The notes under the pieces were generated by a model that saw only the letters and a program-made list of their open reading frames with translations, was not told the origin of the DNA and did not search any database. From an uncultured Geobacteraceae bacterium (lineage in GTDB: Bacteria; Desulfobacterota; Desulfuromonadia; Geobacterales; Pseudopelobacteraceae): a stretch of DNA of 43,191 nt. The DNA is taken from assembly GCA_903901875.1 (NCBI GenBank), contig CAIUSO010000142.1, positions 73,836 through 117,026 of the forward strand, in the 5' to 3' direction. The position numbers and the translations under genes are program-made. Below, piece after piece: positions 5,506-37,728 of this stretch; the stretch's first letter is position 1, and each line of letters opens with the position of its first letter.

Positions 5506-5557
5506 GTTGACTAGAAAACTAGAGACCGACTGCCATCGTGCGTCGGTCTATTTTTTT
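5506..5557 (+). promoter_or_regulatory. Leader/attenuator element, copy 1
   Basis: TGA, then hairpin CTAG-AAAA-CTAG, then A, then terminator hairpin GACCGAC/GTCGGTC followed by seven T. It lies between two radical SAM genes and ends 29 bases before the ATG of the second, so it can terminate or regulate transcription inside the operon. The small stem is CTAG/CTAG here but CCAG/CTGG, CCTG/CAGG or CCAT/ATGG in other copies, which is compensatory change. No obvious CTATA dyad accompanies this copy. It could be a plain terminator with a chance hairpin, but its match to six other leaders argues against that. Confidence 0.75.
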
Positions 5558-5586
5558 ATGTGCCGGATTCAGAGGAGTAGACACCC

Positions 5587-6789
5587 ATGGCTCATTCAGG
5601 ACATGATAAAAAAGCCCGTAAAGAGGCACTCTACAAAGAACTGGAGTTACAGCTCGATCTGGCCATCAACGGCATCACTGTCGACAGTGAGGAGATTGGT
5701 AAGCTAGATGCCGTCTACGCCAGAAGGCTTACCTCCATTTCGCACGCGACCCCACTTTCCTTTAATTTCGTCGGTGGAAAAATTAAAGGCCCGGGTTTTG
5801 ATGCCGGTTTTCGGCAACAAAAGGATTCCATATACGGTCTGGAAGCGGAAGATGGCAAGCCGGTTATTTATAAGTATGGCAGGATTAAAACCAGGGTCGG
5901 TGCCATTGAATTTCGCGAGAAGGAACGCCATCCCTTACTCGACATTACTACCCGTGACGGAGTCCCTTTTCATACCATTGCAGCCATTCGAGAGGATGGA
6001 CAGGTGCATGTCAATTACAGCCAGGAATGCGTTTTGAAGGAAAAGGGTGAAGACTGCCTGTTCTGCAACTACAGTGTCAGAGAGGCGACCCTGAAGACTC
6101 CCCAGCAGGTTGGGGAAGTGTTTTCCACCCTCTATAATGCGGGGGTTGGTAAACATCTAAACCTGACAAGTGGGTTTCTCTATGAGCGAAAAGAGCTTGA
6201 TTACTATCTGGATGTTGCGGACGAAATACAGAGTCGAACCGGCTTGAAAGAGTTCCGGGCCACTGCGGTTATCGGTGCGCCCCTCGATTTCAGTGTGATA
6301 GACAAATATAAGGAAGCCGGATATTTCAGCGTCCGGATGAATATTGAAATCTGGGACAAAAATATCTGGAATGCCATTTGTCCCGGCAAGCGAAATCATT
6401 GCGGTGGATGGGAAAACTGGGTTAAAGCCCTGGAATACGCGGTCGGAGTATTCGGGAGGGGGAGGGTGGCATCGAATATAGTTGGTGGCATTGAACCCAA
6501 GAATTCCATACTCGAAGGGGTTGAGTACAAACTTTCCAAAGGGATTGTGGCTTCTGCCTCATCCTGGCGACCGGTTGCAGGTTCGGTGCTGGAGGGGCAC
6601 CGTTCTCCTGAAACGGCATGGCATTTTGATCTTCAGCGACAGATCGCCGCTCTCTATAAACGCTATAACTTTTCACTTACCGATCTTCATAACGTGAGCC
6701 CCTCGGCGGGTCTGGCAGTAACACTCTTCCAGATTGATCAGGAAGATTTTGACGAGAATGGTGAATTGAGGGCGTGGCAATATCCGTAA
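5587..6789 (+). CDS. Radical SAM protein with a Cx8CxxC cluster motif (paralog 2)
   Basis: 400 residues; AGAGGAG lies 9 bases before the ATG. The cluster cysteines are 148, 157 and 160 (ECVLKEKGEDCLFC). The same landmarks follow: HLNLTSGFLYERKELDYY, GAPLDFSVIDKYKEAGY, and MNIEIWDKNIWNAICPGK. It is clearly paralogous to the genes on both sides but the most divergent of the three in tandem, so it is not a recent duplicate and may act on a different substrate. It is separated from paralog 1 by a leader/terminator element, so its expression can be uncoupled. The function is not recognised. Confidence 0.78.
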   Translation: MAHSGHDKKARKEALYKELELQLDLAINGITVDSEEIGKLDAVYARRLTSISHATPLSFNFVGGKIKGPGFDAGFRQQKDSIYGLEAEDGKPVIYKYGRIKTRVGAIEFREKERHPLLDITTRDGVPFHTIAAIREDGQVHVNYSQECVLKEKGEDCLFCNYSVREATLKTPQQVGEVFSTLYNAGVGKHLNLTSGFLYERKELDYYLDVADEIQSRTGLKEFRATAVIGAPLDFSVIDKYKEAGYFSVRMNIEIWDKNIWNAICPGKRNHCGGWENWVKALEYAVGVFGRGRVASNIVGGIEPKNSILEGVEYKLSKGIVASASSWRPVAGSVLEGHRSPETAWHFDLQRQIAALYKRYNFSLTDLHNVSPSAGLAVTLFQIDQEDFDENGELRAWQYP

Positions 6790-6813
6790 CTAAACTCAAG
6801 AGGAGAAGGCATC

Positions 6814-8037
6814 ATGGCAGATACTGAACAAAATATCACCCCTGCGTCCGATAGATCCGTGGCCGAAAAGGAAGCCGCGCGACAGATTCTTATCAGTGAA
6901 GTGCAACTGGGGTTAAAGCTGGCACAGTATGGCATCAATTATAATGCCGGTGAAATCAGGCCATTTCAGGACGGTTTTGAACAGGCATCGGCATATAATC
7001 GTCAACGGGGATTGACGGGAATCAAGCTTCCCCATGGAGTGACCGCCCGTGGTGGCTACAGCCGATTTACCCCATATTCGCTGGTTGTTGAAGATGGTAA
7101 GCCGGTGCTGTATGACGAGAAGGGACCGATCGGTGTCATCTCTTTTCACATCGCCCATCCGGTTACAGAAGAGCTTCTCAGCAGCGGTGAAAAATTTCGT
7201 CATATCGCCAATGTCAGTAATGAAGGTGGCGTCAGTGTGGCCTACAGTTCCGAATGTTCTCTCAAGGATCTGGGGGAAGATTGCTGGTTCTGTTCCATTA
7301 ATGAACGGGCCAAGGATGGCGATCTGAACAAGGTGCTGATCAAATCGCCGAAACTTGTGGCCGAAGCGTATCATCGTGCCCGTCAGGCAGGTGTAGCCAA
7401 TCATTTCCGGATTACCGGCGGTTTTGTGCCTGAACGGCGTGAACAGGAATATTACCTTGATGTGGCCGATGCCATCCGGGAAAAGTACAGTTCCTTTTAT
7501 GGCGTCGGCATCATCGGTGCACCGGCTGATTTTTCAGTGCTGCCCAAATACAAAGAAGCCGGTTTCGACAATATTTCACACAACCTTGAGGTGTGGGACC
7601 GCAATCTCTTCGCAGCCATCTGCCCCGGTAAGGAAAAGCGCAATGGTGGCTGGCAGCATTGGGTTGACTCACTGGAACACTCGGTTGGGATATTTGGAAA
7701 GGGCAATGTTCATACCAATGTTGTCGGTGGTCTGGCCCCGCTCGATTCAACTCTGGAAGGAATTGAATATCTGGCGTCAAAGGGGGTTGTCTGCCATTTC
7801 AGTGCCTTTAGGCCTGAAAAAGGGACGCCGTTGTACGGCTATCGAAGTCCGGAAGCCTGGTGGCATTGGGAACTGCTGGATAAAGGGACCGATATCTATA
7901 AACGCTATGGTTTCACTACCCTGCAAATGTATAGCGGACCGGCTTCTGCACCGCACCACGGGCAGGTGTTTCAAATTAAAAACGGTGAATTCGAGGGGGA
8001 TACTCTTGCGCAGTGGAAGTTCCCTGCACTTGATTGA
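6814..8037 (+). CDS. Radical SAM protein with a Cx8CxxC cluster motif (paralog 3)
   Basis: 407 residues; GAGGAGAAGG lies before the ATG. The cluster cysteines are 148, 157 and 160 (ECSLKDLGEDCWFC). Long stretches match paralog 1, for example NHFRITGGFVPERR and ICPGKEKRNGGW, and both end in a QWKFP-type tail. That indicates duplication with conserved function, with an N-terminal extension of about 11 residues relative to paralog 1. It closes the radical SAM group and is followed after 30 bases by importer 2. Three tandem copies may be enzymes for related substrates or subunits of one complex. The sequence does not decide this. Confidence 0.8.
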   Translation: MADTEQNITPASDRSVAEKEAARQILISEVQLGLKLAQYGINYNAGEIRPFQDGFEQASAYNRQRGLTGIKLPHGVTARGGYSRFTPYSLVVEDGKPVLYDEKGPIGVISFHIAHPVTEELLSSGEKFRHIANVSNEGGVSVAYSSECSLKDLGEDCWFCSINERAKDGDLNKVLIKSPKLVAEAYHRARQAGVANHFRITGGFVPERREQEYYLDVADAIREKYSSFYGVGIIGAPADFSVLPKYKEAGFDNISHNLEVWDRNLFAAICPGKEKRNGGWQHWVDSLEHSVGIFGKGNVHTNVVGGLAPLDSTLEGIEYLASKGVVCHFSAFRPEKGTPLYGYRSPEAWWHWELLDKGTDIYKRYGFTTLQMYSGPASAPHHGQVFQIKNGEFEGDTLAQWKFPALD

Positions 8038-8067
8038 GCCACTATACTACGTACAGTGAGGAATAAC

Positions 8068-8991
8068 ATGACGTCAGCACATCCTGAGCGGAACGGTGCG
8101 GAGAGCACGGAACTACTGGCTAAGTATCCGGCAGCCTCAAAAAAAATGGGTAATGTGGTGAAGTTTGCCAGTGACAATCGACGCCCCTATACGCCCGTCG
8201 ATAGTCGCATTATTAAGCTTTCTGTTAAAGATCTGGTGATCGGCTATCTTGATAAACAGACCGGCAATACTATGGTGGCTGTTGATAAGGTAACGGTTGA
8301 TATCCGGGAAGGGGAGTTTGTGACAATTGTTGGACTCTCCGGGTGCGGCAAATCGACCTTTCTCAACTCGGTTGCCGGGTTGGTAAAACACCAGCAGGGT
8401 GAAATACGGGTTAATGACCGCATCGTCACTGGTCCGGGGAGAGATCGGTCGGTGGTGTTTCAAAAGGCATCATTACTGCCCTGGCGCAAGGTGGGACGGA
8501 ACATCACCTACGGGCTGGAACTGAGCGGAATGAAACCTGCCGAGGCCAGGATTAAGGCGAGTCATTACGTGAACCTGATCCGTCTCAATGGCTTTGAGGA
8601 TCATTATCCCCATCAGTTGTCAGGAGGTATGCAACAACGGGTTAATCTGGCCCGCGCTCTGGCATGTGATCCTGAGGTGCTGCTGCTGGACGAGCCGTTT
8701 GCCGCTCTGGATGCCATTACCCGTGAGTTGATGCAGGGGGAGCTGCTTGAATTGTGTGAAAAAGTGGGTAAAACTGTCCTGATGGTTACCCATCAGATTG
8801 ATGAAGCGGTGCTCCTCTCCGATCGGGTCATCATTTTTTCGGCCCGTCCGGCCCATGTGCTGGCTGATATCAGTATCCCCATTCCCCGTCCTCGCAAGAA
8901 CCATGTCAAAGACTCTGATCAGTTCCGAGAACTTATGGCGCAGATCTGGTCAGTCATTGAAGGTAACGCCAACATTGGGGGTGGCATATGA
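8068..8991 (+). CDS. SsuB/TauB-type ABC importer ATPase (importer 2)
   Basis: 307 residues from ATG 8068, which has AGTGAGGA just upstream; an in-frame GTG 12 bases earlier overlaps that site and is less likely. Walker A is GLSGCGKSTFL, the signature is LSGGMQQRVNLARAL, Walker B is LLLDEPFAALDAITR, and the switch region is MVTHQIDEA. Compared with its family it has an extra N-terminal tail of about 45 residues before the first beta strand (IIKLSVKDLVIGYL). The stop overlaps the start of the permease gene (ATGA), which implies translational coupling. Confidence 0.9.
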   Translation: MTSAHPERNGAESTELLAKYPAASKKMGNVVKFASDNRRPYTPVDSRIIKLSVKDLVIGYLDKQTGNTMVAVDKVTVDIREGEFVTIVGLSGCGKSTFLNSVAGLVKHQQGEIRVNDRIVTGPGRDRSVVFQKASLLPWRKVGRNITYGLELSGMKPAEARIKASHYVNLIRLNGFEDHYPHQLSGGMQQRVNLARALACDPEVLLLDEPFAALDAITRELMQGELLELCEKVGKTVLMVTHQIDEAVLLSDRVIIFSARPAHVLADISIPIPRPRKNHVKDSDQFRELMAQIWSVIEGNANIGGGI

Positions 8992-9797
8992 GGCTATTGA
9001 CGGTACTGCCGAAGTCCCGGGTGGCTCAGCGTGAGAAAATTATCAGTCTGGCGCTGGGGGGGAGCGTGATACTGTTGTTTCTGATCGGTTGGGAAATTCT
9101 GTTTCAAAGTAAAATTGTCAATCCTCTTTTCATCAGTGCTCCGTCCCGGGTGGTTCTTGCAGGAATAACCATCATCAAGGATGGTACATTGCTGCACCAT
9201 CTGGGGATCAGTGCCAGAGAATTTGCCCTTGGCTATGGTGCTGCGGTCGTCGTCGGCTTTCCGATTGGAATCATTCTCGGATGGTTCAAGCTTGCCAGGG
9301 CCACATTCGGGCCGTTTATCGCCGCCATGCAGGCGACGCCCCGTATTGCCCTGATGCCGCTCTTTATTATCTGGTTCGGGCTTGGTATGACCTCAAAAAT
9401 TATCATTGTCCTGTTAAGCGCGATCTTCCCCCTGATAGTTAATCTCCAGGTTGCCATGGGTACTATTGATGCTGATCTGGTACAGGTCGCCCGTTCATAC
9501 GGCGCGACACGCTGGCAGATATTTCGTACCATCGCCCTCCCTACATCAGTACCATTTTTAATAACCGGTCTGCGTCTGGCGGCGGGACGGGGTCTGCTGG
9601 GGGTAATCGTGGCTGAAGTTTTTGGCGGAGCCGAGGGTATCGGCTACATGATTCAATACGCCGGTTCCACTTTTCAAACCGATAAGGTCTTTGCCGGGGT
9701 GCTGGTTGTCGCGGTGACCGGCATCACTCTGGACGTTGTTCTGGACCGGCTTGGCCGGCATTTTGGCAAATGGCGGAGCGAGGCAGCAGTACATTAA
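8988..9797 (+). CDS. SsuC/TauC-type ABC permease (importer 2)
   Basis: 269 residues with about six membrane segments. The EAA loop is VQVARSYGATRWQIFRTIAL, and the segment QATPRIALMPLFIIWFGLG is typical of the family. The ATG overlaps the ATPase stop by four bases. The binding-protein gene follows after 43 bases. The gene order ATPase-permease-binding protein differs from importers 1 and 4, so the importers are not simple recent tandem duplications. Confidence 0.9.
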   Translation: MRLLTVLPKSRVAQREKIISLALGGSVILLFLIGWEILFQSKIVNPLFISAPSRVVLAGITIIKDGTLLHHLGISAREFALGYGAAVVVGFPIGIILGWFKLARATFGPFIAAMQATPRIALMPLFIIWFGLGMTSKIIIVLLSAIFPLIVNLQVAMGTIDADLVQVARSYGATRWQIFRTIALPTSVPFLITGLRLAAGRGLLGVIVAEVFGGAEGIGYMIQYAGSTFQTDKVFAGVLVVAVTGITLDVVLDRLGRHFGKWRSEAAVH

Positions 9798-14536: not shown

Positions 14537-14578
14537 TTGACATTTGATTTGTTTGATGTAATACTATAAAAAATATAG
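14537..14578 (+). promoter_or_regulatory. Promoter with CTATA-N5-TATAG operator, importer 3 operon
   Basis: -35 TTGACA at 14537 and -10 TAATAC at 14559 (16-base spacer), overlapped by the perfect dyad CTATA-AAAAA-TATAG at 14564-14578. The dyad overlaps the end of the -10 and the start site, which is repressor geometry. The same arrangement recurs at 24323, 31187, 37829 (minus strand) and 37893, the last being the promoter of the Rrf2 regulator itself. The Rrf2 protein is therefore the best candidate to bind here. Confidence 0.65.
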
Positions 14579-14594
14579 ATAACATGAAGTATAG

Positions 14595-14646
14595 GGCTGA
14601 CCTGACAACAGGAGGCCGGGGAATATCTCCGGCCTCCTGTTGTTTT
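14595..14646 (+). promoter_or_regulatory. Leader/attenuator element, copy 2a (first of a tandem pair)
   Basis: TGA, hairpin CCTG-ACAA-CAGG, A, then hairpin GGCCGGGGA/TCTCCGGCC and a T-rich tail. In this copy only, a longer stem is possible: CAACAGGAGGCCGG at 14606-14619 pairs perfectly with CCGGCCTCCTGTTG at 14629-14642. That 14-base-pair stem would destroy the small hairpin, so the two folds are mutually exclusive and could act as a switch. Confidence 0.7.
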
Positions 14647-14655
14647 ACTCAATTT

Positions 14656-14704
14656 GCTGACCAGAAAGCTGGAGGCCAAGGACTACCGTCCCTGGCTTTT
14701 TTTT
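14656..14704 (+). promoter_or_regulatory. Leader/attenuator element, copy 2b (second of a tandem pair)
   Basis: GCTGA, hairpin CCAG-AAAG-CTGG (the last loop G may pair), A, then terminator stem GGCCAAGGAC/GTCCCTGGCT with one mismatch and a run of eight T. It ends 41 bases before the ATG of the importer 3 ATPase and follows copy 2a by 9 bases. Two attenuators in series would give a lower basal level or a two-input gate. Confidence 0.75.
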
Positions 14705-14745: not shown

Positions 14746-15582
14746 ATGGACATTATTGTCTCAAAAGATCTGAAAAAGAAATTCAAACTCAAACATGGAC
14801 AGCGGGTCAATAACAACGGGGTCATATCCAATGAAATTGTCGTGCTGGACGGATTTGATCTGAAGATAAAAAAGGGAGAATTTCTGGTGCTGGTGGGGCC
14901 GAGCGGAAGCGGAAAATCGGTTTTTCTTGATATCGTCGGAGGTTTGAGTACGCCAACAAGCGGAGTAGTCTATCTGGATGACAAGATCGTTGAAGCACCG
15001 AGTGCTAAAACCGGTTACGTATTCCAGCAATATGCACTGTTTCCCTGGCGGACTGCGCTGTCAAATATCGAATTCGGTCTTGAATCCCGTGGTGTTCCCC
15101 CAGAAGAGCGGGTAAAGACAGCACGAGAACTGCTTGCTCTGTTCGGACTCTCAGATTTTGAAGACCGTTTCCCCTATCAGCTTTCCGGCGGGATGCAGCA
15201 GCGGGTAGCCATAGCACGGGCACTTGCAACCAAACCGGAAGTACTGCTGATGGATGAGCCGTTTGCAGCACTCGATGCCCAGACCAGGGAAATTCTGCAA
15301 AACGAATTGATCAGAATCTGGGAAGGTACTGATACGACGGTCATATTCGTTACGCACAGTATCGATGAGGCAGTATTCCTGGCCGATAGGGTTGCTGTGG
15401 TTACCGCCCGGCCTGGTAAAATTAAGGACATCATTGAAATTGACCTGCCACGGCCGAGGGATGGAGACATAAGATCCCGTTGTGAATTTGCTACCAACCG
15501 CCACAAGGTGTGGGATGCACTCAAGGCTGAAGTTAACAAAGCACAACAAGATTGGAAGCTTGCACCGGCATTTGCCTCCTAA
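14746..15582 (+). CDS. SsuB/TauB-type ABC importer ATPase (importer 3)
   Basis: 278 residues from ATG 14746, which has AAGGGG 7 bases before it. The frame stays open upstream through the leader elements, but those residues are not family sequence. Walker A is GPSGSGKSVFL, the signature is LSGGMQQRVAIARAL, Walker B is LLMDEPFAALDAQTR, and the switch is FVTHSIDEA. The first strand carries a lysine-rich insertion (KKKFKLKHGQRVNNNG). It is the first gene after a CTATA-type promoter and two tandem leader elements, so it is probably a regulated importer. Permease and binding-protein genes follow. Confidence 0.9.
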   Translation: MDIIVSKDLKKKFKLKHGQRVNNNGVISNEIVVLDGFDLKIKKGEFLVLVGPSGSGKSVFLDIVGGLSTPTSGVVYLDDKIVEAPSAKTGYVFQQYALFPWRTALSNIEFGLESRGVPPEERVKTARELLALFGLSDFEDRFPYQLSGGMQQRVAIARALATKPEVLLMDEPFAALDAQTREILQNELIRIWEGTDTTVIFVTHSIDEAVFLADRVAVVTARPGKIKDIIEIDLPRPRDGDIRSRCEFATNRHKVWDALKAEVNKAQQDWKLAPAFAS

Positions 15583-24322: not shown

Positions 24323-24366
24323 TTGACATTGGTCACAGTCTCTGTTAAATAATCTATAAAATATAG
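24323..24366 (+). promoter_or_regulatory. Promoter with CTATA-N3-TATAG operator
   Basis: -35 TTGACA at 24323 and -10 TAAATA at 24346 with a 17-base spacer. The perfect dyad CTATA-AAA-TATAG follows at 24354-24366, over the expected start site. A second dyad TCAATAGATAATTGA lies at 24370-24384, and GGAGAGCTCC follows it. This is the cleanest example of the shared promoter-operator design. It drives leader copy 3 and the lipoprotein gene, possibly with read-through into the nitrogenase-like operon. Confidence 0.7.
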
Positions 24367-24409
24367 ATGATCAATAGATAATTGATCTGGAGAGCTCCTG
24401 TAAACCTAA

Positions 24410-24456
24410 GCTGACCATAGATAATGGAGGCCGATGATACTTTCATCGGTCTTTTT
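24410..24456 (+). promoter_or_regulatory. Leader/attenuator element, copy 3
   Basis: GCTGA, hairpin CCAT-AGATA-ATGG, A, then terminator stem GGCCGATGA/TCATCGGTC (one G-T pair) and five T. The small stem CCAT/ATGG differs from CCAG/CTGG at both sides, which preserves pairing. It lies about 38 bases before the lipoprotein start and about 45 bases after the CTATA operator. Confidence 0.75.
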
Positions 24457-24493
24457 ACTTTTATGGGGCTGGCAATTCATGTGGTGGATTTTC

Positions 24494-24982
24494 ATGGGTA
24501 AATTACAAGTAAAAATTGTGGTAGCGTATATAACGCTCTGCACCCTTTCTGGATGTGCAACACATCTTACTGAATCCGGCAAGAGGATACGGGTGTATCG
24601 GAGTGGCTCGGTGGCAAGTGTTAAAAACTGTGAATTTTTGAGTACCGTTACCGGTACCACCGAATCATTTATTACCAACGGTGATTATGGCGTTATCTAC
24701 GCAACTAACGACGCCAGAAACAGGGCGGGAAACATACCCTCGGCTGATACACTGATTCTCACCGATGACGAACCCAGACGTTTTGGTGGTGAAGTGACCG
24801 GAATCGTCTATAACTGCCTATCACCTCGAACGGTTCAAAGCGTCAAGGGTCTTGATCAGGCAGGAAAGAATAATGAATCTCTGCTGGAAGAAAGTAATAC
24901 GGTACTGTTTGAAAAAGCAAAAAAATGTCAGGCAAAGGGGGGAGTATGGGTCAACAATACCTGTGTCATCCCGATCGAATAA
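24494..24982 (+). CDS. Small lipoprotein, DUF4156-like
   Basis: 162 residues from ATG 24494. The signal sequence ends in the lipobox LSGC followed by ATHLT. The mature part (RIRVYRSGSVASVKNCEF, then ATNDARNRAGNIPSADTLIL) resembles DUF4156-type lipoproteins, which have a conserved Cys after the first strand and an ARNDLRNKA-like helix. A second Cys pair near the end (KKCQAKGGVWVNNTC) may form a disulfide. The function is unknown. It is preceded by the operator and leader 3 and ends 28 bases before the next leader, so it belongs to the same regulon as the nitrogenase-like operon. Confidence 0.7.
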   Translation: MGKLQVKIVVAYITLCTLSGCATHLTESGKRIRVYRSGSVASVKNCEFLSTVTGTTESFITNGDYGVIYATNDARNRAGNIPSADTLILTDDEPRRFGGEVTGIVYNCLSPRTVQSVKGLDQAGKNNESLLEESNTVLFEKAKKCQAKGGVWVNNTCVIPIE

Positions 24983-25006: not shown

Positions 25007-25077
25007 TATAATTCGGTTGACCAGAAATACTGGAGGCCAGGTTCTCATCGAGAGAGAACTTGGCCTCTTCTTGTTTG
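25007..25077 (+). promoter_or_regulatory. -10 box and leader/attenuator element, copy 4 (nitrogenase-like operon)
   Basis: TATAAT at 25007-25012 has only a poor -35 (GGTTCA, 17 bases before). The leader starts a few bases later: TGA, hairpin CCAG-AAATA-CTGG, A, then the long terminator stem GGCCAGGTTCTC/GAGAACTTGGCC and a weak T/C-rich tail. If TATAAT is used, the transcript begins at or near the TGA, so the element would be the extreme 5' end of the mRNA. It ends 34 bases before the ATG of the H-like gene. No CTATA dyad is visible, and the poor -35 hints at an activator or at read-through from upstream. Confidence 0.65.
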
Positions 25078-25110: not shown

Positions 25111-25986
25111 ATGAGTGGAAAAATAGGCAAACATATCGCCATATACGGCAAAGGGGGCATTGGTAAATCAACAACGACGTCGAATATCAGTGCTGCCCTT
25201 GCGGAATCCGGGTATCGGGTAATTCAGATCGGCTGCGATCCGAAGAGTGACTCCACCACGATCCTGCGGGGTGGTAACGATCTTCCCACCGTTCTCGATA
25301 CGCTGCGCGAACAGAGCAAGGTGAGGATAGAGGATATTTCGGCAATTGGTTTTGGCGGGGTGCTTTGCATCGAGGCGGGGGGGCCGGTGCCTGGAGTTGG
25401 CTGCGCGGGGCGTGGTATTAACGCTGCAGTTGAGCAACTTCAGGATTTGAAAGTGTTCGAGGAATTCAAACCTGATTTTGTTCTGTATGATGTTCTGGGT
25501 GATGTGGTGTGCGGCGGGTTTGCCGTGCCCATTCGAGATGGATTGGCTGACCGAGCCTTTGTGGTGACCTCATCGGATTTTATGGCTATTTTTGCCGCCA
25601 ACAATCTCTTTAAAGCCGTTACAAAATATGCTCCTTCGGGAGGAGCGCGTCTGGGCGGAGTGATTGCCAACAGTCTCCAGGCACCCTATGCAAAATCATT
25701 GATTGATGATTTTGCCGACAGGACCGGCTCCCGCGTGATCGGATACGTGCCGCGGTCACTTACGGTCGCACAGAGTGAATTGTACGGAAAAACGGTTATT
25801 GAGGCTGTGCCGCATTCCGATCAAGCCCAGGTGTATCGTGATCTGGCCACATTCATCGATAGGGATGAGGATGCCGTGATTCCCCGACCGCTTAACGGGC
25901 CGGAGCTAAAAAAATGGGCTCGGGAATGGGGCGACCGGATCTTCGAAGTTGAAGCCGGCGTTGTCCACGAAATGGGTTCAATTTAA
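25111..25986 (+). CDS. NifH-like nitrogenase-family reductase (iron protein)
   Basis: 291 residues from ATG 25111; AAAAAGGGGC gives the ribosome site, and the open frame upstream runs through the leader. It has the full iron-protein set: P-loop GKGGIGKST at 13-21, the switch CDPKSDS, cluster ligands Cys98 (VGCAGRGI, with the Arg that is ADP-ribosylated in NifH) and Cys134 ([11 protein letters not shown]). It should be an ATP-driven dimeric electron donor with one 4Fe-4S cluster. The C-terminus diverges from true NifH. The catalytic partner genes follow on the same strand, separated by an insertion-like repeat. It is probably a nitrogenase-like (non-N2-fixing) group member, as no other nif genes are in view. 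Confidence 0.92.
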
Positions 25987-26149: not shown

Positions 26150-27562
26150 ATGAGTCCATTACGTTCAAAAGCTCCCCGCAGCCGGGAAAAACGGCTTGAT
26201 ACCCTCGGGGCATGGCTGGGGCCTGTTTCCGTTGCGGCAAAGGAATTTGCCGCAACGGAGGTCTTTCAGCGAATTCGTACCTTTGCCCAGAGCAGCTCCG
26301 ATGATTTGCTCTATGCACTCCGCATCCTGACCGGCATCAAAGAGAGTGTAACCATTATTCATGGTCCCCGTGGTTGCGTCGCCGCCGGCTTGTACCATAT
26401 CGCCGCCGGGAGCGAAACCCGCTGGATAGTTACCAACCTTGATGAACGGGACACCATCATGGGTGCTGACCGTAAACTGCGCACAGCGGTTAAAGCATTG
26501 TATCAGCGCTATCGCCCTCAGGTGGCGTTCATAGTGGCCAACCCGGTCGTGGCTATCAATAATGATGATATACAGTCGGTGGTGGAAGAGTTGCAGGAAG
26601 AGTTGGATCTGTTGATAGTACCGATCTACGTGACCGGCTTTTCATCGCAAAATGCTGTCTCCGGCTACGATACGGCACTCCACGCATTGTTGAAATATCT
26701 CTCCGGCACCACTACGGTCACTGAAAAAAGTGGTGCAGTGAACCTGCTCTCTGTGGCTGAACATCCACTGGACCGGAAAGAGGCGCAGGCTCTTCTGGAA
26801 GCTCTCGGCATTGAATTGAATATACTTCCCGACGATTCAACGGTGGAGTCATTCAAGTCGGCACCGGCAGCCCGTTTCTCAATACCGCTCTGTCCCGATG
26901 CTCCGGAATATCTCGGTTTAATTCTGAAGGAAAAGTACGGCGTGCCGTTCGTTGATGCACCCCGTCCGGTGGGTCTTGAGGGGACCGGTCGCTGGCTCAA
27001 GGCCATAGGTGCGGCCCTTGACGTTGCCGATGGGGCAGAGGAGCTGCATTCCCGAAAGACTGCAGAGACGCTTCAGCAGTTGGGGGACTTTTCGCTTGCC
27101 GGGACAACCGTGTATCTCTCTTTATCATCCGCAAACGCATTCAGCCTCATCCCTTTCATTGAAGAGTTTGGTGGCGTAATAGCGGGAATTACTGTAACTC
27201 ATCTTGATCGCCTCCATGTCCGCTCTCTTAATGAACTTGCTTCCCAAAATCCTGACCTGCAGATACATGTGGCTGACGGTCAGGAGTTCGAAGTGATTTC
27301 CATTCTCCGCCGGCTTTCTCCCGATCTCTATCTGGGTGACTCTACCCATGTCGGTCAGGTTGCCCGTCTGGGCATACCGACGGTATCCCTGGAATCAATC
27401 GGAATAGTCGGGTATGGCGGTGTTCTTCGACTGGCGCGCCGTATAAAAAGTGCGCTGGCAAATCGCTCATTTGGAGACACACTTTCCAGGGTCATTCCAC
27501 CGTACCGTGAATCCTGGTACAACCGGAGTGATAACTGGCATATCAAGCAGGAGGTTAAATAG
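26150..27562 (+). CDS. NifD-like nitrogenase-family catalytic subunit
   Basis: 470 residues of the nitrogenase component 1 family; AAAAGGAAC precedes the ATG. It has only two cysteines. Cys76 (HGPRGC) matches NifD Cys88 of the P-cluster. The positions of NifD Cys62 and Cys154 are Ser-rich (SSSDDLL) and ANPVVAINNDD without Cys. Cys248 (PLCPDAPEY, with KYGVPF 14 residues on) aligns without gaps, at identical spacing to the KYG motif, with NifD Cys275, the FeMo-cofactor ligand. The position of the cofactor His442 is Glu415 (GIPTVSLE). I infer it holds part of a simpler bridging cluster and perhaps an active-site metal cluster. The substrate is unknown; organosulfur reduction is the hypothesis from context. 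The next gene starts immediately after its stop codon. Confidence 0.9.
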   Translation: MSPLRSKAPRSREKRLDTLGAWLGPVSVAAKEFAATEVFQRIRTFAQSSSDDLLYALRILTGIKESVTIIHGPRGCVAAGLYHIAAGSETRWIVTNLDERDTIMGADRKLRTAVKALYQRYRPQVAFIVANPVVAINNDDIQSVVEELQEELDLLIVPIYVTGFSSQNAVSGYDTALHALLKYLSGTTTVTEKSGAVNLLSVAEHPLDRKEAQALLEALGIELNILPDDSTVESFKSAPAARFSIPLCPDAPEYLGLILKEKYGVPFVDAPRPVGLEGTGRWLKAIGAALDVADGAEELHSRKTAETLQQLGDFSLAGTTVYLSLSSANAFSLIPFIEEFGGVIAGITVTHLDRLHVRSLNELASQNPDLQIHVADGQEFEVISILRRLSPDLYLGDSTHVGQVARLGIPTVSLESIGIVGYGGVLRLARRIKSALANRSFGDTLSRVIPPYRESWYNRSDNWHIKQEVK

Positions 27563-28879
27563 ATGTCCCATCATATTGAAGGTTCCCGGAACTCCTGCGC
27601 CCTCCATGGTGCATTGCAGGTATTTGAAGCAATTGAAGGAACGGTTCCGGTTATTCACAGTACATCCGGTTGTGGCGTTCAGCATTATCTGGGAGGCACA
27701 CGCCTCTCCGGCGGTAACGACCCCTTTGGCAGTCCGCCGGTTTCATCCACCAATATCAGGGAGAAACATGTCGTTTTCGGAGGCGGTTCCCGCTTGCGTG
27801 AACAGCTGAAAAACAGTGTCAAGGTTGTCCAGGGGGATCTGTACGCCATTGTTACCGGCTGTTCAATAGAGATGGTCGGTGACGATGTGCCGGCAATGGC
27901 CAAGGAAGGGGTTGATCAGGATTGGCCGGTAATATACACCAACACCCCCGGTTTTCGGGGTGATGTGCATCAAGGGTATCAACTGGCACTGCGTGCCCTC
28001 ATCGAACAGCTGCCGGGGCTCCGCACAGAGTCAGTAGCTGTTCAAGCAGGACAGGTGAATATTTTAGGGGTGATTCCGAATCAAGACCCGTTCTGGCGCG
28101 GCAATTTGCAGGAGGTGGCTCGGCTGCTGGAGGCGATTGGCCTGTTTCCAAATCTGTTGCTGGGTGATGGTCAGGATGTCAATTCCTGGCATCAGGTGCC
28201 GGGGGCCGCTCTGAATCTGGTCCTGTCCCACTGGGGCGAACAGTCTGCACGGCTTCTTGAGGAACGCTACGGTACTCCGTCGATTTCTCTGGATGGTCTG
28301 CCGGTTGGCACCGCTTTCGCTGCTCTGCTGCTCCAGGTGACTGAAAAGCTGGGCCTCGATCCCGAGCGTACCAATGGGGTGATCGCCCGTGAGGAGGTTC
28401 GTTTACGTCAACAGTTTGCCCGATTGGCCGATATCTATTACCGAACGGGATTTCAGCGTGAATTTGCCCTGGTCGGCGAGAGTGCTCTGGTCGTCGGCAT
28501 TGGGGAGTTTCTGGGTAAAAACCTGGGCCTGCTGCCCCGTACCCTGGTGATAACGGACAATCCGCCGGAAAGTGTCCAGAAATCACTGGCCGCCCGGCTT
28601 GGGTCAATTGTTCCCGGCTTTGATACAAAAATTTTATTCAGTGAAGATCGGTCAGAGATAGCCGATGTAGTAAGAACGGGCAAGGCCGGTATTGTTCTGG
28701 GGAGCAGCCTGGAAGAGGATGTGGCACAGGACCTGGGGGTGCCCTTTTTAGCGGTCTCATTTCCCCTCTTCAACCGTATTATCCTTGAGAGAGGCTATGC
28801 CGGCTATGGGGGAGCAGCAGCATTGCTTGAAGATGTGGGCAGCGTGATTCTTGCTGACAGTTTAATACATTCAGTCTAA
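27563..28879 (+). CDS. NifK-like nitrogenase-family catalytic subunit
   Basis: 438 residues, starting directly after the D-like gene with CAGGAGG as ribosome site. All three P-cluster-type ligands are present: Cys12 (NSCALHG), Cys37 (TSGCGVQ) and Cys100 (TGCSIEMVGDD), matching NifK Cys70, Cys95 and Cys153. The N-terminal arm of NifK is absent and the protein begins almost at the first ligand, as in nitrogenase-like enzymes. Together with Cys76 of the D-like partner this gives four cysteines per alpha-beta pair. That fits a 4Fe-4S cluster (compare the three-plus-one NB cluster of dark-operative protochlorophyllide reductase) better than an 8Fe P-cluster. It is followed after 13 bases by a nucleosidase gene. 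Confidence 0.9.
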   Translation: MSHHIEGSRNSCALHGALQVFEAIEGTVPVIHSTSGCGVQHYLGGTRLSGGNDPFGSPPVSSTNIREKHVVFGGGSRLREQLKNSVKVVQGDLYAIVTGCSIEMVGDDVPAMAKEGVDQDWPVIYTNTPGFRGDVHQGYQLALRALIEQLPGLRTESVAVQAGQVNILGVIPNQDPFWRGNLQEVARLLEAIGLFPNLLLGDGQDVNSWHQVPGAALNLVLSHWGEQSARLLEERYGTPSISLDGLPVGTAFAALLLQVTEKLGLDPERTNGVIAREEVRLRQQFARLADIYYRTGFQREFALVGESALVVGIGEFLGKNLGLLPRTLVITDNPPESVQKSLAARLGSIVPGFDTKILFSEDRSEIADVVRTGKAGIVLGSSLEEDVAQDLGVPFLAVSFPLFNRIILERGYAGYGGAAALLEDVGSVILADSLIHSV

Positions 28880-31155: not shown

Positions 31156-31186
31156 ATCGCAGGGCACCGCATGGGATACCCACAGG

Positions 31187-31236
31187 TTGACTTCTTAATC
31201 TACAAAAATTATAGTTTTTATATTATTATATTGACG
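31187..31236 (+). promoter_or_regulatory. Promoter region with CTACA-N5-TATAG operator
   Basis: TTGACT at 31187 and TATAGT at 31210 are 17 bases apart, and the dyad CTACA-AAAAT-TATAG at 31200-31214 (one mismatch) overlaps the -10. A second possible promoter is TTGACG 31231 with TTACTG 31254, also 17 bases apart, which would start the RNA close to leader copy 5. The first fits the operator geometry seen elsewhere; the second puts the operator upstream. Sequence alone does not decide which is used. Confidence 0.55.
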
Positions 31237-31273: not shown

Positions 31274-31344
31274 GCTGACCAGAAAAACTGGAGGCCGGAC
31301 GGATTAGGTGTTACGCACTAATCTTGTCCGGCCTTCTTTGTTTT
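31274..31344 (+). promoter_or_regulatory. Leader/attenuator element, copy 5
   Basis: GCTGA, hairpin CCAG-AAAAA-CTGG, A, then a long terminator stem: GGCCGGAC pairs with GTCCGGCC, and GGATTAG continues with CTAATCT. A T-rich tail (ttctttgtttt) follows. It ends 22 bases before the ATG of the fourth radical SAM gene, so read-through is needed for expression of the fourth importer operon. Confidence 0.75.
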
Positions 31345-31365: not shown

Positions 31366-32610
31366 ATGACGCAAAAATTACAGACAAATCTTGATCAGAT
31401 TGTGGCCCGTTATCCTGATGTGCCTCCCTTGATTATACTCAAGACAGACGTGCAGCGCCGGGGAGTTTTTTACAGCAAAGCAGCATTGGAGCTGCTTGAT
31501 GAGGCAGCGCATCAAACCACCGGTACCCACATTTTCGGTGCCCGCGATGGAATGATTGCCCTTCGTCCTGAATCGTTGCTGCTTCGGGACGGAACTTCGA
31601 TCATTACGACGCCGACTCCCCTGGATGAAAATCCCTATCTTGTTGATGTCAAGGATGGTTCCCCCTGGTTGTTCGATGACGGTGTGGCACTGGAGGCGGT
31701 TGATTACTGGCCAGCACCCGATTTTTATGCAAAAAGCAGCAGTTCGGGCGTGCCGATGAAAAATATTGTCAGTGCTCGGCCGCAACGGCTCAATATCTTT
31801 CCGTATCGCTACTGCACGTTCTGGAATAATAACAAGGGGTGCTCGTTCTGCGATATCGTGTCCCAGTTAAAAAAAGGGGGGAAAGAACTCAATATTCCGG
31901 CAAAGCTTGACCCCCATGAGGTCGGCGTGGTCGTCGGCGAAGCCTTGAAAGAACCGGGGCGCTTCTCGGCGGTATTTCTGACATCCGGCTCAATATTCAG
32001 CGGCGCGGAGCCCTTTGATGACGAGGTAGAGTACTACATCGAGATCCTCAAGGAAGTGGGAAAACAGTTCCGCACCAAAAAATTTCCCAGTCAGATCATC
32101 GGTACCGCATTTACAAAAAAACAGCTTCAGCACTTGTACGACGAAACCGGCTTAATGAGCTACACCGCAGATATTGAGGTTCTCAATGAAGGGCTGTTCG
32201 ACAGGCTCTGCCCGGGAAAGTCGGAGTGGATCGGTTACCAGGGATGGAAAAAGCGGCTGGTCGATGCGGTAGACGTTTTTGGCCCTGGCCGCGTCAATAC
32301 CGGGTTGGTTGCGGGCATTGAGCTGACATCACCCCATGGTTTCATCTCCGAAGATGAGGCTCTGCAGCATACACTTTCCGAGGCGGAAGATCTGGCACGT
32401 CAGGGGGTAAGTACGGTCTTTATCGTCTGGTCACCCCGTCCCCACACGCCACTCGGAAATCAGAAAAACGCCTCCCTTGATTACTACATCAGGTTGGCCC
32501 GGGGACTCCACGCCCTCCGCGTTAAATACCGTCTGCCGATTGGCTACGACGATTACCGGCATTGTGGTAATCACCCGGACAGTGACCTGTCGCGGTTACT
32601 GCCCTACTGA
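31366..32610 (+). CDS. Radical SAM protein with a Cx8CxxC cluster motif (paralog 4)
   Basis: 414 residues. The cluster cysteines are 150, 159 and 162 (YCTFWNNNKGCSFC, again Cx8CxxC). The later landmarks are kept: FLTSGSIFSG, ADIEVLNEGLFDRLCPGKSE and VNTGLVAGIELTSPHGF. It is the most distant of the four paralogs, with a different N-terminal domain (RYPDVPPLIILKTDVQRRGV). Near the end it has YDDYRHCGNHPDSD. It is first in an operon with a split-barrel protein and a complete Ssu-type importer, a second instance of the grouping at 246-5469. The reaction is unknown. Confidence 0.78.
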   Translation: MTQKLQTNLDQIVARYPDVPPLIILKTDVQRRGVFYSKAALELLDEAAHQTTGTHIFGARDGMIALRPESLLLRDGTSIITTPTPLDENPYLVDVKDGSPWLFDDGVALEAVDYWPAPDFYAKSSSSGVPMKNIVSARPQRLNIFPYRYCTFWNNNKGCSFCDIVSQLKKGGKELNIPAKLDPHEVGVVVGEALKEPGRFSAVFLTSGSIFSGAEPFDDEVEYYIEILKEVGKQFRTKKFPSQIIGTAFTKKQLQHLYDETGLMSYTADIEVLNEGLFDRLCPGKSEWIGYQGWKKRLVDAVDVFGPGRVNTGLVAGIELTSPHGFISEDEALQHTLSEAEDLARQGVSTVFIVWSPRPHTPLGNQKNASLDYYIRLARGLHALRVKYRLPIGYDDYRHCGNHPDSDLSRLLPY

Positions 32611-34127: not shown

Positions 34128-34129
34128 TG

Positions 34130-34915
34130 ATGGTGACGGCAGTATCCCCTTTGCTGGACGTACGGGACGTTACGTTGCAGTACAAGACCAGTGAACAACT
34201 GGTTACTGCCACCTGGAAAGTCAGTTTTCAGGCGGACCGCTCCGATCGTCTGGTTCTCCTGGGCCCCTCGGGATGCGGTAAATCGACATTGCTGAAGGCG
34301 ATTGGCGGTTATCTTACGCCGGCGGAAGGGGCCATTACCCTTGAGGGGAAGCCTGTTCGGGGGCCGGGCCCGGACCGGGTCATGGTATTTCAGGAAACAG
34401 AGCAGCTGCTCCCCTGGAAGACGGTGAAGCAAAATGTGGCCTTTGCTCTGATCGCCAGTGGCAGGGCGTCCCGGCAGGATGCTGCTGATCAGGCCATGAA
34501 CGCAATTCGCACGGTGAAACTTGAAAAGTTTGCAGACGCTTATCCCCACACGCTTTCAGGGGGGATGAAGCAACGGGTCGCCATTGCCCGCTGCCTGGCC
34601 ATGAAGCCGGATATCGTTCTGATGGATGAACCGTTTGCTGCGCTGGATGCCCTGACACGTCAGCAGATGCAGGAAGAGTTGCTGGAGTTGTGGGACCGGT
34701 CAAAGTTTACCCTGATTTTTGTTACCCATTCCATAGAAGAAGCAATTCTTCTTGGTAACCGCGTCGTTCTTTTGTCTCCCCATCCGGGGCAGGTGAAGGA
34801 AATTCTGGAGGTGAATCTGGACGACCCGGACAACCGTTTTTACGGTTGTTACGATCAGCTGCGGGACACTATCAATCGAGTTCTGTTCAAGGATGTGGGT
34901 GATTATGTCATCTGA
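34130..34915 (+). CDS. SsuB/TauB-type ABC importer ATPase (importer 4)
   Basis: 261 residues from ATG 34130, with CAGGGGAG 6-9 bases before it; an in-frame GTG directly upstream is less likely. Walker A is GPSGCGKSTLL, the signature is LSGGMKQRVAIARCL, Walker B is VLMDEPFAALDALTR, and the switch is FVTHSIEEA. It is co-translated with its neighbours: it follows the binding-protein gene by 2 bases and overlaps the permease start. Confidence 0.9.
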   Translation: MVTAVSPLLDVRDVTLQYKTSEQLVTATWKVSFQADRSDRLVLLGPSGCGKSTLLKAIGGYLTPAEGAITLEGKPVRGPGPDRVMVFQETEQLLPWKTVKQNVAFALIASGRASRQDAADQAMNAIRTVKLEKFADAYPHTLSGGMKQRVAIARCLAMKPDIVLMDEPFAALDALTRQQMQEELLELWDRSKFTLIFVTHSIEEAILLGNRVVLLSPHPGQVKEILEVNLDDPDNRFYGCYDQLRDTINRVLFKDVGDYVI

Positions 34916-35759
34916 TAAAGTTCTCACTTTTACTCCCCCCACGGTAGAGGCCATTGCAGATATCGCCCGTCCGTTGTCGAGAGCAGAAAGAATCTGGAAC
35001 CAAGCACTGGTGCGCAAGGGGTTCATATTGCTGCTGTTGGCGGTACTCTGGCAATTGTATGCCCGGCAACTGAACAATCCGCTGATATTTCCTACCTTCT
35101 CCGAATCTGTTGTTGCTCTTTGGCAGGCTTTTGTGCATGGTGAGCTGGGGAGCCGGGTACAGACATCGCTTACCATTTTGTTAAGCGGTTATGCCATCGG
35201 TATTGTGCTGGCAACTTTATTGGCGGCCCTTGCCAATGGCACTCGACTCGGTAATGACCTTCTGGAAGTACTGACGGCAATGTTCAATCCGCTGCCGGCA
35301 ATTGCCCTGCTCCCCCTGGCGTTGCTCTGGTTCGGGCTCGGCAACGGCAGCATCACATTCGTGTTGGTTCATGCTGTCCTCTGGCCGGTGGCACTCAGCA
35401 CCCATAGCGGGTTTGCGTCCATCAGTCCCACGATCCGGATGGTTGGGCGCAACTACGGCCTTACCGGCATGCAGTTTGTACTTCAAATTCTCATACCGGC
35501 CGCCTTCCCGGCGATTCTTACCGGGCTCAAAAACGGCTGGGCCTTTGCCTGGCGCACACTTATTGCGGCTGAACTGGTTTTTGGGGTCAGTTCCGGTTCC
35601 GGTGGTATCGGATGGTTTATTTATGAGAACAAGAATCAGCTTGAGATTGCCTATGTCTTTGCCGGCTTATTGACGGTCATCGCCATTGGTGTGGCGATGG
35701 ACAGCTTGTTTCGCTTGGTTGAGCAACGAACGGTCAACCGCTGGGGGATGAAATACTGA
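34905..35759 (+). CDS. SsuC/TauC-type ABC permease (importer 4)
   Basis: 284 residues from ATG 34905, inside the end of the ATPase gene; GTG 34893 is the alternative. About six membrane segments follow a cytoplasmic N-terminal part of about 40 residues. The EAA loop is degenerate (IRMVGRNYGLTGMQFVLQIL). FNPLPAIALLPLALLWFGLG is characteristic of the family. It completes importer 4; the FAD oxidoreductase gene starts 4 bases after its stop. Confidence 0.9.
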   Translation: MSSDKVLTFTPPTVEAIADIARPLSRAERIWNQALVRKGFILLLLAVLWQLYARQLNNPLIFPTFSESVVALWQAFVHGELGSRVQTSLTILLSGYAIGIVLATLLAALANGTRLGNDLLEVLTAMFNPLPAIALLPLALLWFGLGNGSITFVLVHAVLWPVALSTHSGFASISPTIRMVGRNYGLTGMQFVLQILIPAAFPAILTGLKNGWAFAWRTLIAAELVFGVSSGSGGIGWFIYENKNQLEIAYVFAGLLTVIAIGVAMDSLFRLVEQRTVNRWGMKY

Positions 35760-35763
35760 ATAC

Positions 35764-37158
35764 ATGAGAACTATAATGACAGATCACACTGTTTCTGAAC
35801 ATACATTCGATGTAGCAGTTATTGGTGCCGGTGCCAGCGGTACTCTTCTGGCGAGCCAGTACCATAAAAGAGCGGTGCCCGGTGCCCGTCTGGCTCTCAT
35901 TGATGCTGCTGCCCGTCCGGGGCGTGGCGTGGCTTATGAAACACCCTTTCTGGCCAATGTGCTCAATGTACCGGCAGGTAACATGAGTGCCTTTCCTGAT
36001 GACAAACTGCATTTTGTCCGGTGGCTTGCCAAGCGGTTGCCCTACGCTGACGAGTCAACATTTGCGCCGCGAACTGTGTATGGTGATTACCTTGAAGAGA
36101 TTCTTGCGGAAAGCCTGCAGGGTGATTCGGTGCAGTTGGTGAAAGCACGGGCTACCGGCCTGTACCTTCAGGGCGGTTTCTGGATTGTACCGCTCCATGA
36201 CGGTCGAACCATTGCAGCCCGCGCTATTGTGCTGGCCATCGGTAATGCGCTCATACCGGCTGATCCACTCAATGTTTCCCGGATTACGCCGTACTATCGC
36301 GGTACTCCCTGGGGAGCAGATGCCGTTCGGGGGCTCGCCGATGACGCATCGGTGTTGCTTATCGGTACCGGGCTCACAACGGTAGACGTTGCACTGTCTC
36401 TGCGTGAAACGGGCCATCGGGGACCCATGTATGCCGTATCCCGCCATGGTAAATTATATCAGCATCACCGGCCATATACCCCCAAGCCGTTGGATGCACT
36501 TCCTTCTGAATTTCTCTCTCCCCGTGGTGCTTTTCGCTGGGTGCGCAGCGCAATAGGGACGCAGCAGGCTGCCGGCGGGGATTGGCGTGCCGTTATAGAC
36601 AGTCTTCGTCCACATATTCCTCAAATCTGGCATGGCTGGACGCTCCGGCAGCGTGCTTCATTTCTGCGTCACATCCGCAATCTCTGGGATATTCACCGCC
36701 ACCGGATGGCACCTGAAGTTTTTACGCAACTCACCGGACTTCTGGATGACGGCACTCTCACCATTTATGCCGGACGGTTGCTCACGGCAGAAACTGACGG
36801 GTTACAGGCTCGTGTTACCATCCGTGCTGCCCACTCAGAAGATGTCATTAGTGTATTGGCAGACCGGGTCATTAATTGTACCGGTCCCAGCCGGAACTAT
36901 ACGACAACGGATATCCCGCCGATTGCCGGGATGCGTGAACAGGGATTGCTCAGGCCGGATCCATTGAAACTGGGGATTGAGTCAGATGCGGAGGGGCGGC
37001 TCATAGCTGCCGATGGCAGCATCGTCCACGATATATACACTATTGGTCCGTTACGTATACCGTCTCTGTTTGAATCCATTGCTATGCCTGAAATTCGCGT
37101 TCAGGCCGAAAAGCTGGCAACAGTGCTTGCAGCTGTATCACCGAGAGATGATGGTTGA
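35764..37158 (+). CDS. FAD/NAD(P)-binding oxidoreductase, COG4529 (YdhS-like) family
   Basis: 464 residues. It opens with a Rossmann dinucleotide motif (VAVIGAGASGTLLASQYHKR) and continues with PGRGVAYETPFLANVLNVPA and FPDDKLHFVRWL, the hallmark of COG4529. A second nucleotide-binding segment is SVLLIGTGLTTVDVALSLRE. ATG 35764 or ATG 35779 could start it; neither has a strong ribosome site, but the short gap to the permease implies coupling. It is the last gene of the operon that begins with a radical SAM protein, so it may oxidise or reduce the imported substrate. A terminator hairpin follows. Confidence 0.85.
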   Translation: MRTIMTDHTVSEHTFDVAVIGAGASGTLLASQYHKRAVPGARLALIDAAARPGRGVAYETPFLANVLNVPAGNMSAFPDDKLHFVRWLAKRLPYADESTFAPRTVYGDYLEEILAESLQGDSVQLVKARATGLYLQGGFWIVPLHDGRTIAARAIVLAIGNALIPADPLNVSRITPYYRGTPWGADAVRGLADDASVLLIGTGLTTVDVALSLRETGHRGPMYAVSRHGKLYQHHRPYTPKPLDALPSEFLSPRGAFRWVRSAIGTQQAAGGDWRAVIDSLRPHIPQIWHGWTLRQRASFLRHIRNLWDIHRHRMAPEVFTQLTGLLDDGTLTIYAGRLLTAETDGLQARVTIRAAHSEDVISVLADRVINCTGPSRNYTTTDIPPIAGMREQGLLRPDPLKLGIESDAEGRLIAADGSIVHDIYTIGPLRIPSLFESIAMPEIRVQAEKLATVLAAVSPRDDG

Positions 37159-37192
37159 TTTTCGATGTGACTGTATTATAATTTTGAACTTA

Positions 37193-37240
37193 CCGTTGCC
37201 ATCTGTGAGTAATCCTCTTCAGATGGCAACGGCCTGTTTT
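37193..37240 (+). terminator. Terminator of the importer 4 operon
   Basis: CCGTTGCCATCTG and CAGATGGCAACGG form a perfect 13-base-pair stem with a 14-base loop, followed by cctgttttg. It begins 34 bases after the FAD oxidoreductase stop and separates it from the converging DUF2325 gene. Confidence 0.7.
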
Positions 37241-37316
37241 GCTTCTCATTTACTCCTCGCTTGTTTTTTGTTCTGTATTTTTCCTCTTGCATGAGAATCG
37301 TAACGGGTGTCGATGC

Positions 37317-37631
37317 TTAGTGACCGGTGACTGTCCCTGGTGGTGGTCCGATAATCCCAAGGCAATTCAGGCATTCACGGAGACTGCATACTCCGCAGGA
37401 GTGGTGCAGAAATACAGGTATCCCTTCATTCTTTGCGGCGTTTAACGCTCTGTTACGTGCCTGATGTGATATCATGTTGGTAAAGATCACCACACCTTCG
37501 GCTTTTTTTATCTTTGAGCACATACTGCGGTCGTCCTGACTGAATATCTGAATATCCATGCCATGTCGCTGTGCCTCCATACGGTATTGGTCGTCCAATC
37601 GGTCCATGCCGCCTACAAGAATTACACTCAT
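37317..37631 (-). CDS. DUF2325 protein with a cysteine-rich C-terminus
   Basis: 104 residues from the ATG at 37631, where GGAGGA lies 5 bases upstream; an ATG 15 bases earlier has no such site. MSVILVGGMDRLDDQYRMEA and the EGVVIFTNMISHQARNRALN segment are typical of DUF2325, a small Rossmann-like family of unknown function. Four cysteines near the end (SCGVCSLRECLNC, CxxCx4CxxC) could bind metal. It is transcribed away from the Rrf2 regulator behind leader copy 6, so it belongs to the same regulon. Confidence 0.8.
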   Translation of the reverse strand: MSVILVGGMDRLDDQYRMEAQRHGMDIQIFSQDDRSMCSKIKKAEGVVIFTNMISHQARNRALNAAKNEGIPVFLHHSCGVCSLRECLNCLGIIGPPPGTVTGH

Positions 37632-37663
37632 GTTTCCTCCATTCAAATACCGAAGAGTGAATA

Positions 37664-37728
37664 CGGAAAAAGACCGTCAAGGAAGGCGTCTACACACCTT
37701 CTTTTCCGGCCTCCAGTTTTTGGTCAGC
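37664..37728 (-). promoter_or_regulatory. Leader/attenuator element, copy 6 (minus strand)
   Basis: On the minus strand: GCTGA, small hairpin CCA-AAAAC-TGG, A, then GGCCG pairing with CGGTC, an inner stem GAAGG/CCTTC, and five T. It ends about 32 bases before the DUF2325 start. TATAAT lies about 6 bases upstream of the element on the same strand, as in copy 4, so the RNA could begin at the element. The small stem is one pair shorter than in other copies. Confidence 0.7.

Follow-up and report, generated by a model that had tools for sequence, protein, structure and literature searches.

A hairpin switch overlapping a terminator in front of sulfur genes of Geobacteraceae and other bacteria, with the small protein YezD/OscA as its probable trigger

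The stretch analysed here (the window) comprises 43,191 nucleotides of contig CAIUSO010000142.1 from an uncultured Geobacteraceae bacterium (assembly GCA_903901875.1) and contains seven copies of a compact RNA leader that an earlier note had picked out from the letters of the DNA. All seven are indeed present, with their TGA at 5508, 14598, 14658, 24412, 25018 and 31276 on the plus strand and at 37726 on the minus strand, and each consists, as described there, of TGA, a stem of 3–4 base pairs with an A-rich loop, a single A and a terminator beginning with GGCC (GACC in one copy). The stems vary among the copies (CTAG/CTAG, CCTG/CAGG, CCAG/CTGG, CCAT/ATGG, CCA/TGG). Copy 1 (5506..5557, +; stem CTAG/CTAG, GA/A loop, outer helix GU/AC), like all others a switch overlapping or joined to a terminator, precedes a gene for a variant radical SAM protein (5587..6789, +). 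Copies 2 (14596..14646, +) and 3 (14656..14704, +) form a tandem pair before the gene for an SsuB/TauB-type ATPase of an ABC importer of the SaoA/taurine type (14746..15582, +, the start at 14746 being inferred). Copy 4 (24410..24456, +; stem CCAT/ATGG) lies before a DUF4156 lipoprotein-like frame (24434..24982, +), the first ATG of which falls inside the terminator, the true start lying later. Copy 5 (25016..25076, +) precedes a NifH-like gene (25111..25986, +), behind which lie NifD/K-like genes (26150-28879) as well as an MTA/SAH nucleosidase-like gene, copy 6 (31274..31344, +) precedes another variant radical SAM gene (31366..32610, +), and copy 7 (37667..37728, −; stem of 3 base pairs) a DUF2325 gene (37317..37646, −). 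The DUF2325, DUF4156, NifH-like and radical SAM assignments made earlier thus hold. A TATAAT lies directly upstream of two copies, as had been claimed, but these are the fifth and the seventh (25018 and 37726) and not the fourth and the sixth (24412 and 31276). The gene cluster of the window, in which NifH/D/K-like genes and an MTA/SAH-type nucleosidase are found together with SsuA-type binding proteins and variant radical SAM proteins, is reminiscent of methylthio-alkane reductase systems.

When the host genome (4.3 Mb, 169 contigs) was searched with patterns, three copies beyond the window came to light, giving a total of ten: one before metK (contig C142:69856, 4 kb upstream of the window), one before a second NifH-like gene and one before a DsrE-type gene that is followed by a TusA-like gene, the last two names having been given by eye. 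These ten copies served to build a covariance model of the core (R1), which recovered its seeds at E 6e-7 to 9e-5, scores that they owe to construction, and gave nothing further below E 0.39, i.e., no eleventh host copy. By a crude scan of the window alone with an IUPAC pattern, the number of matches was not above chance (7 vs. 4.8 expected). With R1 and the patterns, elements were also recovered in related genomes, the search that the earlier note had recommended. Its author knew no named riboswitch of this form, and this agrees with Rfam 15, in which the window has no match at gathering score; a permissive Rfam search of eight loci yielded just three weak, unrelated matches.

Bases 3 and 4 of AGGCC pair with the dinucleotide that precedes TGA, so forming one longer hairpin, 5'-GYU-GA-CCNN-loop-NNGG-A-GRY-3', in which an outer helix (GYU/GRY) is separated by an internal loop (GA/A) from a stem (CCNN/NNGG) that is closed by an A-rich loop. 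Bases around TGA that had been regarded as unpaired are therefore part of a longer hairpin, and its outer helix covaries. In a list of 192 sites at which TGA is followed by a C..G hairpin of four pairs, by AG and by a terminator, the dinucleotide before TGA and that at positions 3-4 of AGGCC were GC/GC in 134, GT/GC in 21, AC/GT in 21, AC/GC in 4, GC/GT in 4, GT/AC in 3 and singletons in 5. These represent 79 distinct cores, from which four presumed chance matches (L036−, L038+, L039− and L305+) were dropped, also for the later element counts. Among the remaining 75 cores, the first outer pair is G-C in 60 and A-U in 11, and the second C-G in 60, U-G in 12 and U-A in 3. The outer helix is 98% paired. 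This pairing was not a criterion of selection, although the consensus patterns and R1, by which the loci were gathered, are biased towards consensus letters there. Both outer pairs show compensated changes, as do three of the four pairs of the inner helix, for which pairing was required, and the covariation score of the 75 cores was reached by none of 500 shuffles. The selection for RNA structure that had been proposed for the copies is thus supported by the covariation of the outer and the inner helix. Natural compensated variants exist in the host itself, i.e., the copy at 5508 (AGACC with T before TGA) and the DsrE copy.

Since the 3' side of this hairpin is the 5' arm of the terminator, the two states are mutually exclusive, and the element is an antiterminator/terminator switch. 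The earlier view, in which a tiny hairpin is merely stacked on the terminator, does not hold, as the bases before TGA pair with the 5' arm of the terminator and the structures compete. Folding of the ten host copies gave −14.1 to −26.6 kcal/mol for the terminator stretch, compared to −3.3 to −7.5 kcal/mol for the hairpin alone. The internal loop GA/A and the hairpin loop are well conserved, the latter comprising 5 bases in 91, 4 in 64 and 3 in 1 of 156 hairpins. The inner hairpin of 4 base pairs is compatible with the terminator, and RNAfold predicts both together in the metK leader. In copy 2 (14596-14646) the terminator stem reaches into the 3' arm and loop of the small hairpin (CAACAGGAGGCCGG.../CCGGCCTCCTGTTG), so that in this copy the terminator is in competition with the inner hairpin, too. 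Paired elements occur in tandem in the window (14596-14704) and in locus L064 (5145 and 5507), and divergently in L019; tandem arrangement is known for some leader switches.

An exact pattern scan of a species-level genome collection, in which no terminator was required, gave 56 stretches, mainly from Geobacteraceae/Desulfuromonadales, with the labels Treponema, Syntrophomonas, Nitrospirota, Auribacterota, Chloroflexi, Dehalococcoidia, Armatimonadota and Pyrinomonadaceae among the others. By a strict rule, a terminator follows 145 of 156 hairpins with four pairs and a stem starting with CC before AGGCC, compared to 7 of 114 other TGA...AGGCC spacings, which places the hairpin form above chance. 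By eye, several of the 11 hairpins without a terminator by this rule do have terminators that the rule lost, and three (from Verrucomicrobiales, Oscillibacter and Rhodobacteraceae) resemble chance matches.

The element is tied in the genomes to yezD, the gene of a small protein of family DUF2292 (PF10055). The host has two such genes (62.8 and 62.6 bits vs. a cut-off of 22), the only ones found, and the metK and second NifH-like copies follow them after 30 and 23 bases. The window itself has no yezD, one lying 4 kb upstream, before the metK copy, and the likely partner was therefore invisible to the earlier note. Among 277 genomes of the host's class, 54 have both element (E ≤ 1e-4) and PF10055, 5 the element alone, 14 YezD alone and 204 neither; seven of the 14 have a weaker element at E ≤ 0.01. 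The phi coefficient in these genomes is 0.81 for element and YezD but 0.42 for element and SsuA, a target family; within the host's genus the corresponding values are 0.89 and 0.18. After exclusion of 24 elements fetched through YezD and 14 with short flanks (at least 400 bases on each side were required) from a total of 188, yezD was found upstream on the same strand at 27 of 150 elements (24 within 80 bases, 3 at 224-386), and never downstream (0/150) or antisense (0/150). Being upstream, it is not under the control of the element, and its position fits a regulator rather than a target. Outside the class, YezD exceeded the cut-off in 6 of 12 genomes with the pattern and in five of these lies directly before the element; in Syntrophomonas it is over the cut-off but on a different contig from the element. 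The Treponema genome has two sub-threshold YezD pieces, both at contig ends, and YezD reached the cut-off in none of the three chance-match genomes, nor in the Armatimonadota or the Pyrinomonadaceae genome.

The tie was also approached from the side of the protein, by searching for a GA-hairpin-A pattern within 260 bases after the yezD/oscA stop and in control windows. In the host's class (30 loci from 68 genomes with YezD) the pattern occurs in 10/30 loci vs. 15/452 control windows, and in the phylum of Syntrophomonas, where 35 of 199 genomes possess YezD (30 genes examined), in 8/30 vs. 10/468. An R1 match at E ≤ 2e-3 anywhere in the locus was obtained for 16/30 YezD loci. YezD/OscA is present in 24 of 398 Pseudomonadota genomes, and there the pattern follows oscA in 15/24 loci vs. 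19/380 control windows (Fisher 2e-12). The outer helix of these hairpins varies (CCC/GGG, GCC/GGC, GCA/UGC, GCA/UGU, GUGC/GCAC) and pairs more than that of 23 far-off pattern matches (Mann-Whitney 3e-5). In an alignment with one row per distinct hairpin (15; the first match of L334 and the second of L336 were omitted), none of 500 shuffles equalled the observed share of paired cells, the number of cells with changes on both sides or the covariation score.

On inspection by eye, the Pseudomonadota hairpin is not followed by a terminator. A hairpin covers the Shine-Dalgarno site in three leaders (the second element of L323, L332 and L335), to which that of L336 is similar by eye. In L323 and L332 the sequestering hairpin uses outer-helix bases of the recognition hairpin, whereas for L335 the predicted fold allows both hairpins at once. 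Pseudomonas-type oscA-sbp leaders (L316, L318 and L321) have a further conserved-looking stretch 40–90 bases past the hairpin (CACCGGTA-TGCAGC...GCGAATGCG), in which, by eye, no terminator or Shine-Dalgarno hairpin is evident.

All eight YezDs scanned match NCBIfam NF033785, “sulfur starvation response protein OscA,” at 20.8–33.6 bits, and none reaches its equivalog cut-off of 85 bits. By their sequences they are, therefore, related to OscA but not orthologous by the equivalog rule. According to reports on Pseudomonas corrugata 28, oscA encodes a small protein of unknown function, forms one transcription unit with a sulfate-binding protein gene and is up after chromate, its inactivation rendering the cells chromate-sensitive (PMC2996968, PMC3596284). 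In the Pseudomonas-type loci of this study oscA likewise precedes sulfate-binding protein genes. The AlphaFold2 model of a Geobacteraceae YezD has one helix and a beta hairpin.

Many of the genes downstream of the element serve sulfur assimilation and, by raw counts, recur there, in agreement with the link to sulfur suspected earlier. By eye, the genes right after elements include metK and those for O-acetylhomoserine sulfhydrylase, cysteine synthase, sulfate-binding proteins, rhodaneses, sulfonate-type importers and NifH/NifB/NifX-like proteins. A downstream open frame exists at 185 of 188 elements (116 after removal of near-duplicates), and among the first 25 of 67 Pfam families in the 116 proteins are NifH (14), Nitro_FeMo-Co (9), rhodanese (8), ABC ATPase (5), radical SAM (5), NMT1_2 (4), NMT1 (3), PALP (3), ATP sulfurylase (3), MetK (3) and Rrf2 (3), again as raw counts.

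Two further observations concern the regulation of these genes. In L046 and L057 a gene for an Rrf2-family regulator directly follows the element, possibly a second regulator of the same sulfur response. A TCTATA-n3-TATAGA-like palindrome occurs at or near promoters upstream of several copies, including L006 and, in the window, at ~14570-14590, 24355-24380, 31180-31215 and, on the minus strand, 37780-37810. Half-site scores of at least 10/12 were found in 50/183 upstream stretches vs. 4/183 and 0/183 controls, for which AT-richness was not controlled, and a search of the window with an 18-base consensus, in which as many as 3 mismatches were allowed, gave no match. A transcription factor belonging to the same regulon may use this palindrome as its operator.

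YezD/OscA is probably the trigger of the switch. In the OFF state the AGGCC arm would fold into an intrinsic terminator, and in the ON state the same bases would serve as the 3' side of the short hairpin, which blocks the terminator but, being weak by itself, would need a partner. The small protein YezD/OscA, whose genes often lie just upstream of a copy, is the candidate. At low sulfur it would occupy the hairpins and allow read-through to the genes behind, and in some Pseudomonadota leaders the held hairpin would free the ribosome-binding site; activation by binding would fit both forms of output, a broken terminator and a freed ribosome site. The gene order would fit a regulator that is made with its first target and acts in trans on the others. 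We infer the binding, the ON direction and the signal alike, and consider it likely that YezD/OscA binds the hairpin under sulfur shortage and thereby lets transcription into the genes. The idea that the element is a recognition site for a protein or ligand governing read-through is supported, with YezD/OscA as its likely partner. With somewhat less assurance, we favour the wider view that the tiny proteins of DUF2292, a widespread family, bind RNA and turn on sulfur-starvation genes via a hairpin with a GA/A loop. In some Pseudomonadota this hairpin would be coupled to sequestration of the ribosome site, and in Desulfuromonadia, Bacillota, Spirochaetes, Chloroflexi, Nitrospirota and others to a terminator. 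One old RNA-protein pair would thus underlie a sulfur response in at least seven phyla.

Several results weigh against this interpretation. The co-occurrence of element and YezD is uncorrected for phylogeny. Five genomes with a strong element (G138, G144, G239, G254 and G259; completeness 98, 98, 99, 88, and 100%) have no YezD, a looser YezD search of these exceptions gave nothing convincing, and one of them, G144, carries six elements. Conversely, seven genomes with YezD have no element even at E 0.01, and at E ≤ 2e-4 an R1 match is present in the stretches of 16/30 YezD loci and absent from 14/30. For the Pseudomonadota, 9/24 loci lack the pattern, R1 finds nothing in these loci, most of them have no recognised output structure, and two of the five covariation measures on the 15 hairpins fail to beat the shuffles, namely the count of pairs with changes on both sides (228/500) and that of pair types (87/500). 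Structure comparison of the YezD model gave no telling structural relative.

It seems unlikely that the hairpin binds a small sulfur-related ligand, as a metabolite riboswitch, with YezD merely accompanying the sulfur regulon. The presence of metK and other sulfur genes downstream and the good conservation of the GA/A internal loop and the hairpin loop would suit such a ligand, to which small size is no bar. However, a hairpin of 22–25 bases with a loop of 4–5 bases is smaller than most aptamers, yezD lies upstream of the element and never downstream (0/150), and its co-occurrence with the element is far tighter than that of the target family. It is even less probable that YezD belongs to the system while another factor, e.g., a NusG paralog, binds the RNA; the five element genomes without a recognisable YezD are in line with this, as is the fact that by comparison YezD has no known RNA-binding fold. 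However, CAT_RBD (PF03123), the domain of LicT/BglG-type proteins, has 0 matches in the host genome, the same search being positive in 4 of 14 control genomes, and no other adjacent gene was seen to recur like yezD, although no systematic test was made and NusG paralogs were not searched.

The direction of the switch could also be reversed, YezD binding the small inner hairpin and so strengthening the terminator or the sequestering hairpin, for which the compatibility of this hairpin with the terminator and their joint prediction in the metK leader may be quoted. This we regard as very unlikely, because the outer helix, which covaries, cannot form together with the terminator, and because the impaired chromate resistance reported after loss of oscA suits a positive role. 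Finally, CCAG-N4-CTGG is palindromic and a separate palindrome lies near some of these promoters, as might be expected of a DNA operator for a dimeric repressor or activator. We give this hardly any credence, however, since compensated changes on both sides occur in five of the six pairs, including the outer, non-palindromic ones, and 145/156 hairpins are joined to a terminator.

The antiterminator proteins LicT, SacY and BglG act on ribonucleic antiterminator (RAT) hairpins that overlap the 5' arm of a terminator. The element resembles these in that a short hairpin with an internal loop overlaps the 5' arm of the terminator, as shared bases and covariation indicate, and the role of the small RNA-binding protein that holds the hairpin for read-through is proposed here for DUF2292; the RNA itself differs. 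A small leader hairpin also recruits a protein that overrides termination in the case of LoaP (a NusG paralog) and of the ANTAR antiterminators, a likeness that would extend to the element as proposed. ANTAR sites consist of two hairpins with hexanucleotide loops, whereas the element is one hairpin with a loop of 3–5 bases. The S-box (SAM-I) of Geobacter is reported to be a terminator leader before metIC and metX (PMC545781). It thus shares with the element its position before methionine genes in the same bacterial group but is a separate Rfam family, whereas the element has no Rfam match. OscA of Pseudomonas (NF033785) belongs to the same domain family as YezD, although the YezDs of the host group fall below its equivalog cut-off, and it has been called a protein of unknown function, with no RNA target reported there (PMC2996968). 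Searches of open-licence PubMed Central papers brought up no account of the hairpin or of RNA binding by YezD/OscA, although the element may have been listed earlier among the “multicopy sequences” of Geobacter. We file the element as a case of protein-linked antitermination that is new in its RNA and in its candidate protein.

If this is true, it would provide a mechanism for YezD/OscA, a widespread protein tied to sulfur starvation and chromate resistance for which no function has been described. A sulfur regulon, here together with nitrogenase-like genes, would be marked by an RNA signature that is short and searchable, and one recognition hairpin, small enough for rapid binding studies and linked to two kinds of output, would make the mechanism directly testable.

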